From JAUWCW01 sp030609125 [NCBI: Candidatus Rokuibacteriota bacterium] (GTDB lineage: Bacteria; JAUVQV01), in NCBI GenBank assembly GCA_030609125.1, contig JAUWCW010000060.1, positions 1 through 9,099 on the forward strand: a stretch of DNA of 9,099 nucleotides, given 5' to 3'. Shown in pieces: positions 2-9,099 of this stretch (its first letter is position 1; each line of letters starts with the position of its first letter). The position numbers were made by a program, and so were the translations under genes. Under the pieces are notes generated by a model. That model saw only the letters and a list, made by a program, of their open reading frames with translations. It made no database searches and was not told the origin of the DNA.

Positions 2-1276
2 GAGCGGATCCGGGCGATCGCGCCGTCGGCCAGGCGGATCTATGTGCTGCGGGAGCGGTTCGACTGCTCGCACTGGAGGTGCGTGAAGGACTGCTTCCAC
101 CAGGTCACCGGCAGGCACATCGTCACCGAGCCCTTGACGCAGGCGGAGCGCAACGCCCTGTACGCCATCTGGGCATTCGAGCGCTTCAAGAGGACCTTCG
201 CCGTGCAGACGGCGAGCGACTACCTGCTGGTCCTGCTGGGGGAGCAGGAAGTGGAGAACGCCGAGCAGAACTACCGGGGGCTCATCACCTCCACCCGCCG
301 GGCCCAGCGCCTTGCCGAGGCGGGACGCCTCCCCTGGTTCCAGTTCGACCAGTCCCTTCAGAACGAGCTGAGGTCGCGGGACCGCTGGGTGCGGTCGAGG
401 GAGTCCTACAACCGGCGTCTCGACGCCTTCAAGGTAGAGATGGGACTGCCCACCGACGCCCGCGTCGAGCTCGATGCGGGTGAGCTGGAGAGGATGGCGG
501 AAGCGGTTCGACGGGTGCTGTCCCTGGACGAGCTGGACCCCGCACCGGAGAGCGTGCCTCCCGCCGACGCGCCGGTGGTGCTGAAGGAGCCCGAATGGCC
601 GGGCGCGGGGCCCATGGAAATAAGAGAGCAGGAGGCCCTCGGGCTGGCCCTGGAGAACCGCCTGGATCTGCGGGTCGCCCTGGGCAGGGTCTATGACGCA
701 CAGAGAAAAGTGGTGGTGGCGGCCGACGCCCTGCGGGCGGAGCTGACTCTCCTCGGCTCAGCCGCGGTCGGCGAAAGGCGCGGACCGGGATCCTCGGAGC
801 TCGCCGACGCGGAAATAGCCTTCGACGAGGGCCGCTACGCCGCCCTCCTGGCCCTCGATCTTCCCCTGGAGCGCACCGCCGAGAGAAACGTCTACCGGGA
901 GAGCTACATCTTTCTGGAACAGGCGGTGAGAAACGTGCAGGGCCTGGAGGACCAGGTCAAGCTCGAGGTGCGCAACCGTCTTCGCAGCCTCCTGGAGTCC
1001 AGGGAGGGGATCACGATCCAGTACCAGGCGGTGCGGATAGCCGAGCGAAGGGTGAAGAGCACGGACCTTTTTCTCCAGGCGGGACGGGCGGACGTGCGGG
1101 ACGTGCTGGAGTCGAGCGAAGCCCTGCTGAACGCGCAGAACGCCCTCGCCTCGGCGCTGGTGGACTACCGCGTCTCCGAGCTGGAGCTGCAACGCGACCT
1201 GGGAGTCCTGGAGGTGGACGAAACAGGCCTCTGGAGGGAATTCAAACCCCGGGAGAGAAAAAATGGAAGATCATAG
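2..1276 (+). CDS. TolC-family outer-membrane efflux channel, 5' end outside window
   Basis: This would be the outer-membrane exit duct of the exporter encoded by the next three genes. The frame is open to the left edge, giving 424 visible codons; signal peptide and true start are not seen. Two TolC-type helical-hairpin halves are visible. The first is around codons 50-180, with the segment IVTEPLTQAER followed by long charged helices and ending near GLPTDARVELD. The second is around codons 210-400, with NRLDLRVALGRVYDAQRKV and later ALVDYRVSELELQRDLGVLEVD, the typical end of an outer membrane efflux domain. The stop overlaps the start of the adaptor gene by 14 nt. The first ~37 codons, containing FDCSHWRCVKDC, do not resemble the family as I remember it, so the junction near base 110 may be divergent or rearranged. 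The family call is firm; the substrate is unknown. Confidence 0.82.
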   Translation, partial: ERIRAIAPSARRIYVLRERFDCSHWRCVKDCFHQVTGRHIVTEPLTQAERNALYAIWAFERFKRTFAVQTASDYLLVLLGEQEVENAEQNYRGLITSTRRAQRLAEAGRLPWFQFDQSLQNELRSRDRWVRSRESYNRRLDAFKVEMGLPTDARVELDAGELERMAEAVRRVLSLDELDPAPESVPPADAPVVLKEPEWPGAGPMEIREQEALGLALENRLDLRVALGRVYDAQRKVVVAADALRAELTLLGSAAVGERRGPGSSELADAEIAFDEGRYAALLALDLPLERTAERNVYRESYIFLEQAVRNVQGLEDQVKLEVRNRLRSLLESREGITIQYQAVRIAERRVKSTDLFLQAGRADVRDVLESSEALLNAQNALASALVDYRVSELELQRDLGVLEVDETGLWREFKPRERKNGRS

Positions 1277-2819
1277 CGGATCTGCCTCCCGGTCTTCGCG
1301 CGGGCTGATTCTCGCGCTCTGTGCGGCAGCCGCGGCAGTTCTTGTTGTGGTGTGGCAGGTGACGCCCGGCCGCCAGGACGAGACCGCGAAGAACCAGCCG
1401 GTTTTCGCCGCCCAACGGGGTCCCCTGACCATCAGCGTCACCGAGTCGGGCACCATCAAGGCCAGGGAACAGATCATCATCAAGAACAAGGTGGAAGGGC
1501 GCACGACCATCCTCAGTCTCGTCCCCGAGGGTACGAGGGTGAAGAAGGGAGACCTCCTGGTGGAGCTCGACGCCAGCAGCCTGAAAGACCGCAAAGTGGA
1601 CCAGCAGATCAGGGTCATGAATGCCGAGGCGGCCTTTGTGCGGTCCCGGGAGAACCTGGAGGTCGTCAGGAACAAGGCGGTGAGCGACGTGGACAAGGCG
1701 GAGCTCGAGTTGCGGTTTGCCGGGGAGGACCTGAAAAAATACGTCGAGGGCGAGTTCCCGCAGAAGGTGATGACCGCGGAGGCGAAAGTCACCCTCGCCG
1801 AGGAGGAGTTGAGCAGGGCGGCGGAGAAGCTCACCTGGTCGAAGGTCCTCTTCGACGAGAAGTACCTCTCGCAGATGGAGCTGCAGGCAGACAAGCTGGG
1901 GGCCAGGAAGGCCGAGCTCGACATCAAGCTGGCCCGGGCGGACCTGGAGCTGCTGAAGAGCTTCACCTACGAGAGGGAGCTGGCCCAGCTCGAGAGCGAC
2001 GTGAGGCAGAAGACCATGGCCCTCGAGCGCGTGCGCCGGGCGGCGGCGGCGGACCTGGTCCAGAGCGAGGCCGATCTGCGGGCGAAAGAGTCGGAGTTCG
2101 AACAGCAGAAGAACAAGCTGGGCAAGGTGGAGAGCCAGATCGTGAAGACCAGGATCGCCGCTCCCGCGGACGGCCTGGTGATCTACGCCACCAGCGCCAA
2201 GGCCACCTGGCGCGGCAACGTGGAGCCCCTTGACGAGGGACAGCAGGTCCACGAGCGCCAGGAGCTGATCTATCTGCCGACGGCCTCCTCGTTCATGGCA
2301 GACGTGAAAGTTCACGAGTCGAGTCTGAAGAAGATCTCCGTCGGCCTGTCTGCCCGTCTGACCGTGGACGCCCTGCCGGGACAGGCCTTCACCGGCACGG
2401 TGGCCAAGATCGCCCCCCTTCCCGACGCGCAGAGCATCTTTCTCAACCCCGATCTGAAGGTCTACAGGACGGAGGTGCACATCGACGGTGACGGCAAGGA
2501 CCTGAGGACCGGGATGAGCTGCCGGGCGAAGATCGTCATCGCCCGCTATGACGACGCGCTCTTTGTTCCGGTGCAGGCGGTTCTCAGGGTGAAGGGCAAA
2601 CCGACGGTCTACGTGCGCGGGAAAAGCGGCTGGGAGCCCCGGGTCATCGAGACCGGCCTCGACAACAACCGCATGATGCGGATCACGGCCGGTCTGGAGG
2701 AGGGGGAGGAGGTCCTGCTCACGCCGCCCCTGGAGGAAGGGGAGGTGGAGCGCGAGGAAGAGGGCCCGTCTCCCTCCACCCCGCGGGCGAAGACCCCGGT
2801 GAGCCGGGAGAGCCCGTGA
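1263..2819 (+). CDS. Periplasmic membrane-fusion (adaptor) protein, MacA/HlyD-like, long hairpin
   Basis: The protein has 518 aa and would link the inner-membrane ABC transporter to the TolC-like channel. An N-terminal signal anchor lies at residues 14-33 (GLILALCAAAAAVLVVVWQV). A first lipoyl half-motif follows at about 57-104 (GTRVKKGDLLVELD), then a long charged coiled-coil hairpin at about 105-293. The second lipoyl half starts at IAAPADGLVIYA near residue 298, followed by beta-barrel and membrane-proximal domains (VPVQAVL, then ITAGLEEGEEVLL). The C-terminal tail is acidic, then proline/serine-rich. At the hairpin midpoint, K189-x6-L196-x6-S203 matches the R-L-S tip motif by which adaptors dock onto TolC, with Lys for Arg. 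The start is chosen from GGGAG at 1251-1255, 7 nt before ATG. At 518 aa it is much longer than E. coli MacA (about 370 aa), largely in the hairpin. The substrate cannot be read from sequence. Confidence 0.88.
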   Translation: MEDHSGSASRSSRGLILALCAAAAAVLVVVWQVTPGRQDETAKNQPVFAAQRGPLTISVTESGTIKAREQIIIKNKVEGRTTILSLVPEGTRVKKGDLLVELDASSLKDRKVDQQIRVMNAEAAFVRSRENLEVVRNKAVSDVDKAELELRFAGEDLKKYVEGEFPQKVMTAEAKVTLAEEELSRAAEKLTWSKVLFDEKYLSQMELQADKLGARKAELDIKLARADLELLKSFTYERELAQLESDVRQKTMALERVRRAAAADLVQSEADLRAKESEFEQQKNKLGKVESQIVKTRIAAPADGLVIYATSAKATWRGNVEPLDEGQQVHERQELIYLPTASSFMADVKVHESSLKKISVGLSARLTVDALPGQAFTGTVAKIAPLPDAQSIFLNPDLKVYRTEVHIDGDGKDLRTGMSCRAKIVIARYDDALFVPVQAVLRVKGKPTVYVRGKSGWEPRVIETGLDNNRMMRITAGLEEGEEVLLTPPLEEGEVEREEEGPSPSTPRAKTPVSRESP

Positions 2820-3526
2820 AAACCACCGCCGCGGGTGCGACCTGTGCCGAGGCCTGCCTGAGGGAGGTTTGCAAGGTTTACAGGATGGGGGACCAGGAGG
2901 TCCCGGCACTGCGCGGCGTCTCCGTGGAGTTTGATCCCGGCAGCTTCTGGGCCGTCATGGGTCCCAGCGGGTCGGGCAAGAGCACTCTTCTCAACATCCT
3001 CGGCTGCCTCGACCGGCCCACGTCCGGCCGGTACCTTCTCCAGGGGGACGACGTGGGCGCCCTCGACGACGACACCCTCAGCGAGCTGCGCCTGCGGCGC
3101 CTGGGCTTTGTCTTTCAGAGCTTCAACCTCATCCCCCAGCTGACGGTGGAAGAGAACATCCAGCTCCCCCTCTACTACCTGGGGTGGGAGCCGGAAAAGA
3201 GCATTGAGCGTGCCCGCGAGCTGGCGGCGAAGTTCGATCTTGCCGACCGTGTGGGACACCGTCCGACGGAGCTCTCGGGAGGGCAGCAGCAGCGGGTCGC
3301 CATCGCCCGGGCCCTCGCCAACGACCCCTCGATCATCCTCGCCGACGAGCCCACGGGGAACGTGGACTCCAGGATGGGCGGGGAGATCATGCAGATCATC
3401 TCGGAGCTGAACAGGTCGGGGAAGACGATCATCATGGTGACCCACGAGCCGCACATCGCCGCTTTTGCCCGCCAGAGGCTTTACATGAAGGACGGCGCCG
3501 TCGAGCACATCGAGGAAGGCCGCTGA
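2816..3526 (+). CDS. ABC transporter ATP-binding protein, MacB/LolD-type
   Basis: This 236-aa cytoplasmic ATPase drives the adjacent FtsX-type permease. All nucleotide-binding motifs are intact: Walker A GPSGSGKS at 49-56, Q-loop Gln101, signature LSGGQQQR at 153-160, Walker B IILADE ending at catalytic Glu178, D-loop NVDS at 182-185 (NLDS/NLDT is commoner) and H-loop His210. The segment PTSGRYLLQGDDV and the overall length fit the MacB/LolD/FtsE group. In E. coli MacB the ATPase is fused to the permease; here it is a separate chain. The start is GTG, overlapping the adaptor's TGA by 4 nt (GTGA), with GGGAG at 2806-2810 spaced 5 nt; the next Met (residue 24) would remove the first beta strand. 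The N-terminus carries a short extension with Cys10 and Cys14. Transport activity is well supported; cargo is unknown. Confidence 0.92.
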   Translation: MKTTAAGATCAEACLREVCKVYRMGDQEVPALRGVSVEFDPGSFWAVMGPSGSGKSTLLNILGCLDRPTSGRYLLQGDDVGALDDDTLSELRLRRLGFVFQSFNLIPQLTVEENIQLPLYYLGWEPEKSIERARELAAKFDLADRVGHRPTELSGGQQQRVAIARALANDPSIILADEPTGNVDSRMGGEIMQIISELNRSGKTIIMVTHEPHIAAFARQRLYMKDGAVEHIEEGR

Positions 3527-4791
3527 TGCGCCGCTCCCGGCTGATGCTCAACGTCAGACTCGGCATCAAGAACCTTCGGCTGCACAAGCTCCGCTCCTTT
3601 CTGACCATGCTCGGCGTGGTCTTCGGGGTGAGCAGCGTCATCGCCATGCTCGCCGTCGGCGAGGGTGCGAGCAAGGAGGCGCTGGAGCAGATCCGGAAGC
3701 TGGGAAGCAACAACATCATTGTCCGCTCCGTCAAGCCGGTGAAGGAGCAGATCCGGGAAGTGAGGACCAGAATGAGCATCTACGGCCTTCTCTACGAGGA
3801 TATGGAACGCATCGCCGGTAGCTTCTCCGCCGTGCGCAGGATCGTGCCCGCCAAGCTCGTGCGGCAGGAGGGGAGACTGGGAGCGCGCACTCTGGAGCTG
3901 AGAGTCGTGGGAACCACGCCGGAGTGGTTCGACCTGGTGCGGAGGCCCCTCGTCGCCGGGAGGGTGATGACCTCCACGGACAACGGGCAGCGCCGGGGGG
4001 TGGTGGTCCTCACCGAGCACGGGGCGAGAAGACTCCTGGCGACGGAGGGCACCATCGGTCAGCCCGTGAGGATCGGGGGAGGCATTTTCGAGGTGATAGG
4101 CATCGTGCAGAGCGAGAGCGGTTTCGGGGGGGACATCCAGACGCCCGACCAGGACGTGGACGCCTACATTCCCCTCGAGGTCGCGCGGGAGCGCTTCGGC
4201 GACATCTTCACGCAGAGGACGGCCGGAGCCCGGATACGGGAGCGGGTCGAGCTGCACCAGCTGATCGCCGAAGTGGCGACGCTGGAAGAGGTGGAGGCCA
4301 CCGCCGCGGGAATCGAATCTCTGCTTATGAGGTTTCACGGGAAGCAAGACTACCGCGTCAGCGTGCCGCTTGCCCTGCTGCGCCAGGCGGAGGCGACAAA
4401 GAGGACGTTCAACATCGTTCTCGGCTCCATCGCAGCCATCAGCCTCCTGGTCGGGGGAATCGGCATCATGAACATCATGCTCGCCTCCGTCACCGAGAGA
4501 ACCCGGGAAATCGGCATCAGAAGGGCGGTAGGCGCCAAGAAAAAGCAGATCGTCGGACAGTTCCTGATCGAGACCGTCGTCCTCTCCACCACCGGCGGAC
4601 TGATCGGGATCGGGATCGGGCTCCTGGTGCCCTGGCTGATCACCAGCTTTGCCGGCATGCCGACGGTGGTCAAACCGGGGAGCCTTGTCCTCTCTCTCGG
4701 CATCAGCATGACCGTGGGGATCCTCTTCGGGATCTATCCCGCCTTCCGAGCCGCCGACCTCGATCCCATAGAGGCCCTGCGCCATGAATGA
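3526..4791 (+). CDS. ABC transporter permease, MacB/FtsX family
   Basis: The protein has 421 aa and forms the inner-membrane part of the exporter, probably as a dimer. The topology fits MacB: a first membrane helix at about 20-42 (SFLTMLGVVFGVSSVIAMLAV), then a large periplasmic domain (about 50-290), then three C-terminal helices starting near 295 (NIVLGSIAAISLLVGGIGI), 340 and 388. Family hallmarks are GGIGIMNIMLASVTERTREI followed by GIRRAVGA (the coupling region that contacts the ATPase) and a C-terminal PAFRAADLDPIEALRHE. MacB proteins move substrates such as macrolides, peptides or lipoproteins by mechanotransmission from the periplasm rather than through a membrane pore; this is family knowledge. 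The start ATG overlaps the ATPase TGA by one base, with GAGGAAGG at 3512-3519. The last codons overlap the following methyltransferase gene by 8 nt. Confidence 0.92.
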   Translation: MRRSRLMLNVRLGIKNLRLHKLRSFLTMLGVVFGVSSVIAMLAVGEGASKEALEQIRKLGSNNIIVRSVKPVKEQIREVRTRMSIYGLLYEDMERIAGSFSAVRRIVPAKLVRQEGRLGARTLELRVVGTTPEWFDLVRRPLVAGRVMTSTDNGQRRGVVVLTEHGARRLLATEGTIGQPVRIGGGIFEVIGIVQSESGFGGDIQTPDQDVDAYIPLEVARERFGDIFTQRTAGARIRERVELHQLIAEVATLEEVEATAAGIESLLMRFHGKQDYRVSVPLALLRQAEATKRTFNIVLGSIAAISLLVGGIGIMNIMLASVTERTREIGIRRAVGAKKKQIVGQFLIETVVLSTTGGLIGIGIGLLVPWLITSFAGMPTVVKPGSLVLSLGISMTVGILFGIYPAFRAADLDPIEALRHE

Positions 4792-5752
4792 GGCGGGAAG
4801 GAAGTCTCGTCCCGGCCCCGAGGCGAGGTTGTGGACGAAGGTCGTGATCGAGACCGGTCGAGGGAGCTGTGAGGAGGTGGCGCTCTTTCTTGCCGAGATG
4901 ACGGGCGGCGGGGTGGAGTGCGTTTCCGTAAGCGACAGGGGGCACTCTCCCAGGGAGCAGGTGGTGGGCTACCTCGGCAGCGACGCCCTCAACCCGTCGC
5001 ACAAGAGCCGGCTGGCAGCATTCCTGGAAGAGCTGGGGGCGCGCGATCCGCTGGCGGCCCCCGTGCTGGTGCGCTCCGAGCCGGTGCCGGAGGAGGACTG
5101 GCGCCACATCTGGAGGACCCACTTCCGGGTGTCGCGGCTGACGCCGAGGCTGGTGGTCAGGCCCCCCTGGGAGGAGTATGTCCCGAAGGGGGAAGAGCGT
5201 GTGCTGGAGATCGACCCGGGCATGGCCTTCGGGACCGGCCTTCACGCCAGCACCCGCCTCACCCTTTCCTTCATCGATGACCTCTTCAAGGAACCGGAGG
5301 AAACAGGGACAGCCCCCACTTTTCCGGAAACGGTGCTCGATATAGGCGTGGGGACGGGCATACTCTCCATGGCCTGCGCCCGACTCGGGGCACGGGATGT
5401 CACGGCCATCGACAACGACCTTGCGGCGGTGAGTGCCGCGGAGGGGAACATCAGGCGCAACGGCCTTGAAAGAATAGTAAAAGTGAGCGGTGTGGACCTT
5501 GCCGCCGTGCCGGGATCGTTCGACCTGATCACGGCCAACATGTTTCACAATATCCTGGTCGAGCTGGCCGCCCGGATTGTTCGTCGGCTCCGGGTTCCCG
5601 GGACCCTCCTCTGCTCCGGCATTCTGGAGGGAGGGCAGGAGGAGAGCCTCAGGCAGGTTTTCGAGGGCCTCGGACTCCATTTCACCGAATCGCGGCACGA
5701 AGGGGAATGGGTGGCCCTGCGCTTCGACAGAACCGGGGACGGTCCACGGTAG
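4784..5752 (+). CDS. prmA: Ribosomal protein L11 methyltransferase
   Basis: PrmA uses S-adenosylmethionine to methylate ribosomal protein L11 in the GTPase-associated centre. The 322-aa protein has an N-terminal substrate-recognition domain (about 16-110), a linker, the PrmA hallmark DPGMAFGTGLHAST at 144-157, and a class I methyltransferase fold: motif I VLDIGVGTG at 184-192, the acidic residue in VTAIDND, and motif IV DLITANMFHNIL starting at 247. Many PrmA proteins have ANILANPL in motif IV, so the MFHNIL variant is divergent but keeps the N-x-x-x-N/P pattern. E. coli PrmA is about 293 aa; the excess is mostly a charged N-terminus and a linker near 168-182. The start ATG lies inside the permease gene (8-nt overlap), with GAGG at 4771-4774 as a plausible ribosome site. 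The tight overlap implies cotranscription with the exporter. A related protein methyltransferase is the main alternative, but the 144-157 motif favours PrmA. Confidence 0.9.
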   Translation: MNEAGRKSRPGPEARLWTKVVIETGRGSCEEVALFLAEMTGGGVECVSVSDRGHSPREQVVGYLGSDALNPSHKSRLAAFLEELGARDPLAAPVLVRSEPVPEEDWRHIWRTHFRVSRLTPRLVVRPPWEEYVPKGEERVLEIDPGMAFGTGLHASTRLTLSFIDDLFKEPEETGTAPTFPETVLDIGVGTGILSMACARLGARDVTAIDNDLAAVSAAEGNIRRNGLERIVKVSGVDLAAVPGSFDLITANMFHNILVELAARIVRRLRVPGTLLCSGILEGGQEESLRQVFEGLGLHFTESRHEGEWVALRFDRTGDGPR

Positions 5753-5791: not shown

Positions 5792-5820
5792 TTGACAGCC
5801 CCTCTGCAAAACACTATACT
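5792..5820 (+). promoter_or_regulatory. Strong sigma70-type promoter for fusA
   Basis: The -35 box TTGACA (5792-5797) matches the consensus exactly. The spacer is the optimal 17 bp and the -10 box TATACT (5815-5820) differs from TATAAT at one position. A T-rich run lies immediately upstream. In such GC-rich DNA this is very unlikely to be chance. Transcription should begin near 5826-5828, leaving a leader of about 125 nt before fusA. Confidence 0.85.
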
Positions 5821-5952: not shown

Positions 5953-8037
<2,085 letters not shown>

Positions 8038-8077: not shown

Positions 8078-8082
8078 AGGAG
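8078..8082 (+). promoter_or_regulatory. Ribosome-binding site that fixes the ATPase gene start
   Basis: AGGAG is spaced 7 nt from the ATG at 8090. It supports this start over the in-frame upstream ATGs at 7988 and 8009, which lie inside fusA. Those would add an arginine-rich, low-complexity extension encoded mainly by fusA sequence. Confidence 0.75.
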
Positions 8083-8089
8083 CGCCGAT

Positions 8090-8836
8090 ATGCTGAAAAA
8101 AGACCTTATCCTCAAGAACCCCCTCCGGGCCCTCGAGCCCGAGACCGGTCCGAATGCCGCACCGAGCCGCATGGGGCTGGTGATCGCCCGCCGCGGCGTG
8201 GGCAAGACGGCCATGCTCGTCCAGTTCGCCCTGGACAGCCTGCTGCGGGGAAACCGGGTGCTGCACGTGAGCATAGGACAGAAGCTCGAGAAGACCAAGG
8301 CCTGGTATGAGGACCTCTTCGAGGACCTTTCCCGGTCGTACCGCCTCGACCACGCCGGCCAGGTGCACGACGAGATCGCCCGCAACCGCTTGATCATGAC
8401 GTTCAAGGCCACCGCCTTCAGCGGCCCCAAGCTGGAAGAGCGCCTGAACGATCTGCTCTACCAGGACATCTTCAGACCCGAATGCATGGTCATCGACGGC
8501 TACGACTTCGAGAGCGCCACGCGCCCGCAGGTCCAGGACCTGCTCGACCTGACCCAGGCGATGAGCCTGCACACGTGGTTCTCCGCCGTCAGGCACCGGG
8601 AGGATCCCCGCACCAGTGAACTCGGCGTCCCGGTGCCCTGCGACAAGTTCGAGGACCTCTTTGACACCATTCTTCTTCTTGACCCCGAGGAGAAGGGGAT
8701 CGCCCTGCGGACGCTCAAGGACGAGTTCTCAGACGCCGCCGGGAAGAGGAAGCTCATCCTCGACCCCGCGACCTTTCTCGTCAGCACACTTGACCATCAA
8801 AGCCCGGATAAGACCAACGAATCAGGGAGGCAGTAA
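8090..8836 (+). CDS. Uncharacterised P-loop ATPase, RecA/KaiC-like fold
   Basis: I do not recognise a named gene. The 248-aa soluble protein has a Walker A-like loop ARRGVGKT at 33-40, with Ala where the first Gly of GxxxxGKT is expected. Next come a helix and strand typical of RecA folds (RGNRVLHVSIG at 53-63) and a Walker B strand CMVIDGYDF at 132-140 with Asp136. A strand WFSAVRHRE at 163-171 ends in polar residues, as a sensor position would. No signal peptide or membrane segment is seen. The region 64-100 is helical and charged and could bind a partner. It starts 52 nt after fusA with a good ribosome site and no terminator between, so it may share the fusA transcript. The next gene begins 3 nt after its stop, implying a two-gene unit. 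ATP binding is likely; the role is unknown. A KaiC/RadA-like or regulatory ATPase are alternatives. Confidence 0.8.
   Translation: MLKKDLILKNPLRALEPETGPNAAPSRMGLVIARRGVGKTAMLVQFALDSLLRGNRVLHVSIGQKLEKTKAWYEDLFEDLSRSYRLDHAGQVHDEIARNRLIMTFKATAFSGPKLEERLNDLLYQDIFRPECMVIDGYDFESATRPQVQDLLDLTQAMSLHTWFSAVRHREDPRTSELGVPVPCDKFEDLFDTILLLDPEEKGIALRTLKDEFSDAAGKRKLILDPATFLVSTLDHQSPDKTNESGRQ
8825..8830 (+). promoter_or_regulatory. Ribosome-binding site of the last, partial gene
   Basis: GGGAGG lies within the last codons of the ATPase gene, 9 nt before the ATG at 8840. It supports this start and coupled translation of the two genes. Confidence 0.7.
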
Positions 8837-8839
8837 GGA

Positions 8840-9099
8840 ATGAAACCGCAGGAGTGTATTTTGTTCAGCGGCGGCGCCCAGGGAGCGGAAGCGGAATTCG
8901 GGGCGGCGGCGGAAAAGTTCGGCGTCGAGGAGGTGAACTTCACCTTCGAGGGGCACAGGATGGAAAGAGCAAGGGGCATACGCGCTCTCAATCACGAGGA
9001 GCTCAAAAAGGGGGACGTGAGCCTGGCCTATGTCTCGCGGATCATGAACCGCAAGTATCCCGACGCCCCCCTCATAAGGAAGGTGCTGCAGAGCATCTG
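8840..9099 (+). CDS. Hypothetical protein with glycine-rich, possibly SLOG/Rossmann-like N-terminus, 3' end outside window
   Basis: Eighty-six complete codons are visible before the window ends, with no stop. The N-terminus reads ECILFSGGAQGAEAEFGAAA: a short strand, a glycine-rich SGGAxGAE turn, then a helix. This pattern occurs in SLOG (SMF/DprA-LOG) and related Rossmann-like nucleotide-binding proteins. It continues EEVNFTFEGHRMERARGIRA, a helix with HEELKKGDVSLAYVS, and an arginine/lysine-rich RIMNRKYPDAPLIRKV. I have an impression of conserved hypothetical proteins sharing the TFEGH stretch, but cannot name a family. The start is set by GGGAGG at 8825-8830. It follows the ATPase stop by 3 nt, so the two products probably work together. 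The reading frame is convincing; the SLOG assignment is inference from the glycine motif alone, and the catalytic part, if any, may lie beyond the window. Confidence 0.72.
   Translation, partial: MKPQECILFSGGAQGAEAEFGAAAEKFGVEEVNFTFEGHRMERARGIRALNHEELKKGDVSLAYVSRIMNRKYPDAPLIRKVLQSI

Follow-up and report, generated by a model that had tools for sequence, protein, structure and literature searches.

A RecA-fold ATPase gene kept behind one clade of mitochondrial-type EF-G genes in at least six phyla, with an optional SLOG partner

The translocation step of translation is catalysed by EF-G, and to our knowledge no dedicated ATPase partner of this factor has been described. The window analysed here, a stretch of 9,099 nucleotides that forms contig C56 in a draft genome of 2.3 Mb and 376 contigs (Candidatus Rokuibacteriota bacterium), carries two small genes directly behind an EF-G gene, so that the question arises whether these genes belong to the translation factor and, if so, what they might do for it. 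A first, sequence-only reading had treated the two small genes (8090 to 9099) as the unit of interest; the gene pair stands, but its limits do not, as the conserved unit begins at the EF-G gene further upstream. On the + strand, the gene order of the window is TolC-like, MacA-like, MacB-like, PrmA-like, EF-G, RecA-fold ATPase and SLOG gene, and the features of the part under study are as follows.

5792..5820, + strand: sigma-70-like promoter sequence TTGACA-17-TATACT, 5' of the EF-G gene (consensus scan, 11 of 12 matches)
5953..8037, + strand: EF-G of the spdEFG1 / mitochondrial EF-G1 type, 694 aa (TIGR00484, PDB matches, KDG insertion)
8078..8082, + strand: putative ribosome-binding site AGGAG, 7 nt 5' of the ATG at 8090 (read from the sequence)
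8090..8836, + strand: predicted KaiC/DnaB-class RecA-fold ATPase, 248 aa (48-sequence alignment, model and fold matches, profile match to DnaB-like helicase)
8825..8830, + strand: putative ribosome-binding site GGGAGG of the SLOG gene, within the ATPase gene (read from the sequence)
8840..9099, cut by the window end, + strand: predicted cpYpsA-like SLOG protein, N-terminal 86 aa (contig overlap, motifs in 35 sequences, profile match to viral-contig relatives)

The reading frames and the sequence bear out the tight spacing that had been described for the two small genes. The ATPase frame runs from a conserved ATG at 8090 to a stop at 8836, and the SLOG gene follows with an ATG at 8840 after a gap of 3 nt, its ribosome site lying inside the first gene. 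Contig C78 of the same genome, when reverse-complemented, begins with exactly the last 141 bases of the window, a search of the contigs found no other place in the draft genome sharing these bases, and the joined sequence gives a full SLOG protein of 182 aa. Since orthologues of both proteins occur at the same position in another genome (67% and 70% identity), both gene products look real.

Between 5700 and 9099, the consensus scan found a single promoter-like site, compared with a mean of 0.4 in shuffled sequences, and this sequence at 5792..5820 is a candidate for the promoter of an operon. All four terminator-like sites in the same interval lie on the minus strand and none on the + strand, in agreement with the earlier remark that no terminator is visible after the EF-G gene. 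Because the promoter-like site is located 5' of EF-G and no terminator-like site follows on the + strand, a single transcript covering the EF-G, ATPase and SLOG genes is likely.

Several further genes surround the unit. On C78, a gene for a PAS-domain sensor histidine kinase lies 3' of the SLOG gene (L003, 1119-3083), and at the other end of the window, positions 2-4791 hold what looks like an exporter operon, with TolC-like and MacA-like genes and with the MacB-like ATPase and permease encoded separately. Just 5' of EF-G (4784-5752) lies a gene resembling prmA, for the methyltransferase of ribosomal protein L11, which scores 140.8 bits against a family cut-off of 183.15; L11 belongs to the site at which EF-G acts. 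As a member of the EF-G unit, PrmA was nevertheless dismissed, since it was present at only 1 of 31 EF-G loci, namely the window's own (L081), in a check that reached up to about 1.5 kb 5' of EF-G at most of these loci and less far at some.

The earlier reading had placed the pair directly after fusA. The adjacency to an EF-G gene is real, but the gene is not the canonical FusA of the str operon, an assignment ruled out by its scores together with the KDG insertion: it is an EF-G of the spdEFG1/mtEFG1 type. Against TIGR00484 the protein scores 992.6 bits (cut-off 659.4), its best match in the PDB is a mitochondrial EF-G with 830 bits, all others reaching at most 672, and it contains the sequence GKDG, that is, the three-residue KDG insertion in switch I which passages of PMC3150367 give as the mark of spdEFG1. 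The exact KDG was found in 14 of the 17 EF-Gs of the ATPase-partnered clade with readable N-termini (at least two of the remaining three read RDG), in 8 of 17 spdEFG1 proteins without this partner, and in none of 14 canonical EF-Gs.

Over 386 genomes, sampled for spread and not selected by the ATPase gene, the EF-G scores are bimodal: barring a gene fragment in G001, 33 genomes reach at least 777.9 bits and the rest at most 702.4. Adding G179, in which the EF-G gene is split by contig edges, gives 34 genomes of the spdEFG1 type, a lower bound, since the limits applied were E 1e-60 in one search and E 1e-204 in the search for the score groups, and further genes split by contig edges may escape the latter. 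In the draft genome G001 (5% contamination), two different, overlapping spdEFG1 pieces were seen (G001:C192 and G001:C225, with 82% and 72% identity to the EF-G of the window), which represent either a duplicate or a second strain.

Clear homologues of the ATPase were found in both genomes of the window's own phylum, in 32 of 82 genomes of the phylum of G046, in 1 of 7 of the phylum of G036, in 6 of 8 of the phylum of G180 (limit E 1e-20) and in 28 of 195 of the phylum of G263 (limit E 1e-12), as well as in three named Thermodesulfobacteriota assemblies and in 16 of the 386 spread genomes, 7 of these 16 also being contained in the phylum sets. This amounts to 81 genomes from at least six GTDB phyla, because no genome is shared between the five phylum sets and nine of the spread genomes lie outside all of them. 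Excluded from the count over the 386 genomes were 45 of 61 matched genomes that had only weak, partial matches in the P-loop region (at most 32.8 bits, and mainly within longer frames), and 14 loci of such matches (L058-L071) were left out of the linkage count over the 81 genomes.

A survey of gene neighbourhoods, as had been suggested for the surroundings of fusA, gave a uniform result. In 79 of the 81 genomes, the gene directly upstream of the ATPase and on its strand is that of EF-G; these 79 are all the genomes in which the upstream gene can be read, and the distance from alignment end to alignment end is 10 to 304 nt. The two remaining carriers are contig edges: in G443, two overlapping contigs give the same order of EF-G and ATPase, and in G477 just 14 bases precede the ATPase match. 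The adjacency extends over 27 numbered family labels and at least six phyla. Among the open frames within about 1.5 kb 3' of the ATPase in the 79 genomes, the only clusters found in more than two families were SLOG (27 genomes, 7 families) and shadow frames of SLOG. As downstream genes thus turn over and PrmA is rare upstream, it is the EF-G-ATPase pair that is kept and not its surroundings.

The linkage also holds when it is approached from the side of EF-G, with the ATPase occurring in 16 of the 34 spread genomes with an spdEFG1-type EF-G versus 0 of the 352 others. In the 18 spdEFG1 genomes without it, the DNA 3' of EF-G holds unrelated open frames or the contig ends. One could argue that the two genes have no functional tie at all, and that a DNA or housekeeping protein of the RecA/DnaB class merely uses the promoter of EF-G, the pair having moved together. 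The best PDB profile matches of the ATPase, a DnaB-like helicase followed weakly by Twinkle and RadA, would fit this explanation, as would the location of the sole promoter-like site between 5700 and 9099 in front of EF-G. It would further be in line with one ATPase copy found away from EF-G: G481 carries a divergent second copy (L160) behind a gene that we take to be urocanate-hydratase-like, with no EF-G within 1.5 kb upstream, so that the family may have a second genomic context. However, an adjacency that persists across 27 family labels and at least six phyla while the other neighbours turn over, together with the absence of the ATPase from all 352 genomes that lack an spdEFG1-type EF-G, makes a mere passenger fairly unlikely in our opinion.

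Phylogenetic trees of EF-G show that the linkage arose once. In a FastTree phylogeny of 110 EF-Gs, the 76 partnered proteins and three rows from contig edges form one clade with a support of 99 and one change of state, and the 17 spdEFG1 proteins without an ATPase fall outside of it. When three omitted partnered EF-Gs were added, all 79 were placed in the clade (support 99), together with the three edge rows already named; the EF-G fragment L039, left out of the 110-row tree and of the IQ-TREE analysis, was restored in this tree. An IQ-TREE phylogeny of 50 rows, 25 of them partnered, likewise gave a single clade of partnered EF-Gs (SH-aLRT 99) and one change. As most of the partnered rows had been found by way of the ATPase, the spread sample is the best guide to loss within the clade, and in it the EF-Gs of the clade are accompanied by the ATPase wherever the DNA behind EF-G can be read. 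In G308, an EF-G lies inside the partnered clade and no ATPase match was found in the draft genome; here, the contig ends 189 bases after EF-G.

The ATPase is not generally needed by spdEFG1, as it is missing from 17 spdEFG1 genomes outside the clade. This bears on the idea that the protein acts on the ribosome and not on EF-G, taking part in the same step as spdEFG1 as a factor for rescue, recycling or hibernation. Such a role could draw on the same linkage data, and also on the division of the translocation and recycling functions of EF-G between spdEFG1 and spdEFG2, as set out in passages of PMC4342817 and PMC3150367. The ATPase, however, tracks one EF-G clade and not ribosomes at large, the 17 other spdEFG1 genomes lacking it, and we regard a ribosome factor as unlikely.

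The partnered and unpartnered EF-Gs were further compared position by position, and at the thresholds used, only positions 228 and 414 set the clade apart. With just two such positions, a signature of an EF-G interface was not found. The same result weighs on another possibility, that the ATPase is a biogenesis or quality-control factor, such as a chaperone or modifying partner, that makes or maintains the EF-Gs of this clade. The strict order of EF-G followed by ATPase and the single origin are what a maturation partner would lead one to expect, but proteins that differ consistently at two positions only, and in which no feature requiring maturation is visible, render this role quite improbable.

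What kind of protein, then, has been kept behind EF-G? The ATPase of the window passed no cut-off of Pfam or NCBIfam; against the KaiC families it scores 13.5 bits for PF06745 (cut-off 26.6) and 16.9 bits for TIGR03880 (cut-off 249.45). None of nine relatives scanned in Pfam with cut-offs passed either. With other members, values down to E 8.3e-7 were obtained for AAA_25 and down to 5.7e-6 for KaiC, and some members may hence pass the cut-offs of these generic families. Searched as a profile against the PDB, the family finds a DnaB-like helicase best (1.7e-11). A structural model made from four sequences (pLDDT 68.5, pTM 0.70) is, at these values, trustworthy in its core only; in Foldseek its top row is the KaiC CI domain 4tl6 (E 6.1e-11), and in VIA-align its Z scores against DnaB, RadA, the RAD51 group and KaiC range from 18 to 19.5, with T4 gp41 (19.5), DnaB (19.4), RadA (19.2) and KaiC (18.6) tied within about 1. 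We assign the protein to the KaiC/DnaB class of RecA-fold ATPases, with a single domain.

The alignment of 48 sequences, which predates the searches of the G180 and G263 phyla, agrees with this assignment. G36, G38 and K39 of Walker A, which spans G36-T40, and D136 of Walker B are invariant in all 48, and the description of the first protein as RecA-like with a P-loop is supported by these residues and by the match of the model to the KaiC, DnaB and RadA folds. W163 and K210 are likewise invariant, and by analogy K210 could be a trans-acting lysine, a feature of KaiC-type rings. A catalytic glutamate after the second core strand, in turn, was not found in the family. The corresponding column, set by the aligned residue of gp41 (a glutamate in two solved chains and a glutamine in a further one, with an E227Q mutant named), holds A22, S8, G7 and N5 (42 of 48) and others, with E in 1 of 48, the placement being uncertain by one position. 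The usual glutamate thus appears to have been lost, and with the Walker residues invariant and this column not E in 47 of 48, we infer an intact ATP site with weak hydrolysis. Hydrolysis would still be possible, given that the column next to it is acidic in 39 of 48 sequences (D31, E8). In viral contigs, only two partial matches in the P-loop region were obtained for the ATPase.

For the second protein, the assignment as SLOG-like has gained support from conserved motifs, from a profile match to relatives in viral contigs, and from the model of one of these relatives. GGA-GAE-like, GGTGW and GTGTR motifs are largely kept across 35 sequences, with G15, E17, G113 and W114 present in 35 of 35 and G110-T112 in 32 to 34; we take the GGA-GAE/D and GGTG motifs as marks of SLOG. 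The full protein passed no Pfam cut-off and matched no SLOG family; its fragment in the window scores 13.2 bits against YAcAr (gathering score 28.2), and among 28 relatives the best values are E 0.0057 in Pfam (cpYpsA, 1 of 28) and E 0.0078 in NCBIfam. A scan of viral contigs found 121 SLOG relatives, of which 80 were kept (L164-L243), and the profile of the bacterial proteins matches that of 30 viral relatives with an hhalign probability of 100% (2.9e-50); 3 of these 30 show a weak match to cpYpsA. One viral relative was modelled (pLDDT 97.2), and its top match is 3imk, a putative molybdenum carrier protein, with a Z of 13.3 over 130 residues, the next row being at 5.8; the protein of 3imk presumably belongs to the Pfam family cpYpsA. 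Judged by these comparisons, we place the second protein among the cpYpsA-like SLOG domains, its fold match resting on the model of the viral relative. Some of the relatives in viral contigs lie inside very long frames, one of them with a helicase-like stretch. A clear match of either protein to a well-known unrelated family, which would have spoken against the proposed unit, was not obtained, both proteins of the window staying below the cut-offs of the families scanned.

The pairing of ATPase and SLOG is not confined to the window: where it had been left open that their homologues might never be adjacent in other genomes, they were found side by side, and in many genomes fused. G263 and G001, the one relative of the window, encode both in a single frame. 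Among the 28 carriers in the phylum of G263, 27 have SLOG next to the ATPase or fused with it, G665 (locus L139) being the one without, and of 26 SLOG-bearing loci 25 have it in the ATPase frame and L153 does not; the match at L154 has an internal stop. Of all 81 carriers, 29 have SLOG next to the ATPase and 52 do not. The window and G263 hold separate places in the EF-G tree, so that SLOG must have been joined on more than one occasion, been frequently lost, or moved. Standalone SLOG homologues occur in five genomes at six places (L074-L078 and L080) with mixed neighbours; a match in G048 (E 1.5e-4) was left uncounted. Two of the standalone genes (L075 and L076) adjoin genes that we name, provisionally, as larC-like and as small and cysteine-containing. 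The proposal of a translation-linked accessory unit of P-loop and SLOG proteins is therefore supported as far as the linkage to EF-G is concerned, but not as a constant pair, as the ATPase is constant and SLOG optional; the functional link itself stays conditional.

The SLOG domain might also point to a defence or stress shut-off module, with SLOG as the reader of a signal nucleotide and the ATPase as the part that stops EF-G. Cyclic ADP-ribose isomers are reported to activate the SIR2-SLOG effectors of Thoeris (PMC11204291), and the frequency of SLOG relatives in viral contigs could be seen in the same light. Against PADLOC, however, the best value for the ATPase is E 0.021, and two SLOG domains gave no match at E 0.1. 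The mostly single-copy, clade-wise spread with one origin is also unlike that of a patchy defence island, and with 52 of 81 carriers having no SLOG beside the ATPase, such a module appears very improbable.

From our point of view, the most plausible explanation is that the ATPase represents a dedicated nucleotide-binding accessory factor of spdEFG1-type EF-G that tunes translocation, with SLOG as an optional sensor, and we would give this view an even chance of being correct; any detailed mechanism deserves less confidence than that. In such a mechanism, the ATPase would keep its ATP-binding site and, probably in oligomeric form, act as a nucleotide switch that hydrolyses slowly or not at all. 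It would bind its cognate EF-G, either free or on the ribosome, and in the bound form tune translocation to the nucleotide or energy state of the cell. SLOG, whether beside or fused, would add a second small-molecule input, possibly a nucleotide, in the lineage of the window and in nearly all carriers of the G263 phylum. More broadly, one could speculate that a clade of mitochondrial-type EF-G has its own KaiC-like regulatory ATPase switch, kept since one origin in at least six phyla, as a layer of elongation control that gates translocation by nucleotide state with SLOG as second reader. This wider formulation is tentative, and we consider it somewhat less probable than not.

In the literature searched (titles and openings of abstracts, with most subscription journals outside its scope), no EF-G-ATPase pair was found. 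A published survey of EF-G gene context, as described in passages of PMC3150367, was based on orthologues of E. coli genes and, being limited to these, would miss any gene that lacks an E. coli orthologue. The spdEFG1 group, which includes the EF-G type found here, is reported in part of PMC4342817 as the source of mitochondrial EF-G1; there, mtEFG1 and mtEFG2 are traced back to spdEFG1 and spdEFG2, and these two are described as subfunctionalised for translocation and recycling. That one EF-G clade has retained a partner across at least six phyla suggests a control of elongation of a kind not seen in E. coli. The parts belong to known superfamilies, no searchable family fits the ATPase or the SLOG protein, and the pair is new within the literature searched; if the regulatory role can be shown, the novelty would be greater than the known parts imply.

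Compared with known systems, the ATPase shares the RecA fold with the ATPase domains of KaiC, DnaB and RadA, as judged by Foldseek and VIA-align, but differs from them in being one short domain, in a catalytic glutamate column that is not E in 47 of 48 sequences, and in its linkage to EF-G. The SLOG protein resembles the cpYpsA-type SLOG of 3imk through the model of its viral relative (Z 13.3) and through weak matches to Pfam cpYpsA, whereas the protein of the window stays below Pfam cut-offs and is joined to an ATPase behind EF-G. With ThsA of Thoeris (SIR2-SLOG), it has in common a SLOG domain of the kind found there in a nucleotide-activated protein (PMC11204291); at the locus of the window, however, no SIR2-like or ThsB-like part was seen, and SLOG is partnered by a P-loop ATPase and EF-G. 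The EF-G itself is like spdEFG1 and mitochondrial EF-G1, both in its best solved match, a mitochondrial EF-G, and in the KDG insertion described in passages of PMC3150367, and what distinguishes it is the ATPase neighbour, which among the genes examined is confined to one spdEFG1 clade.
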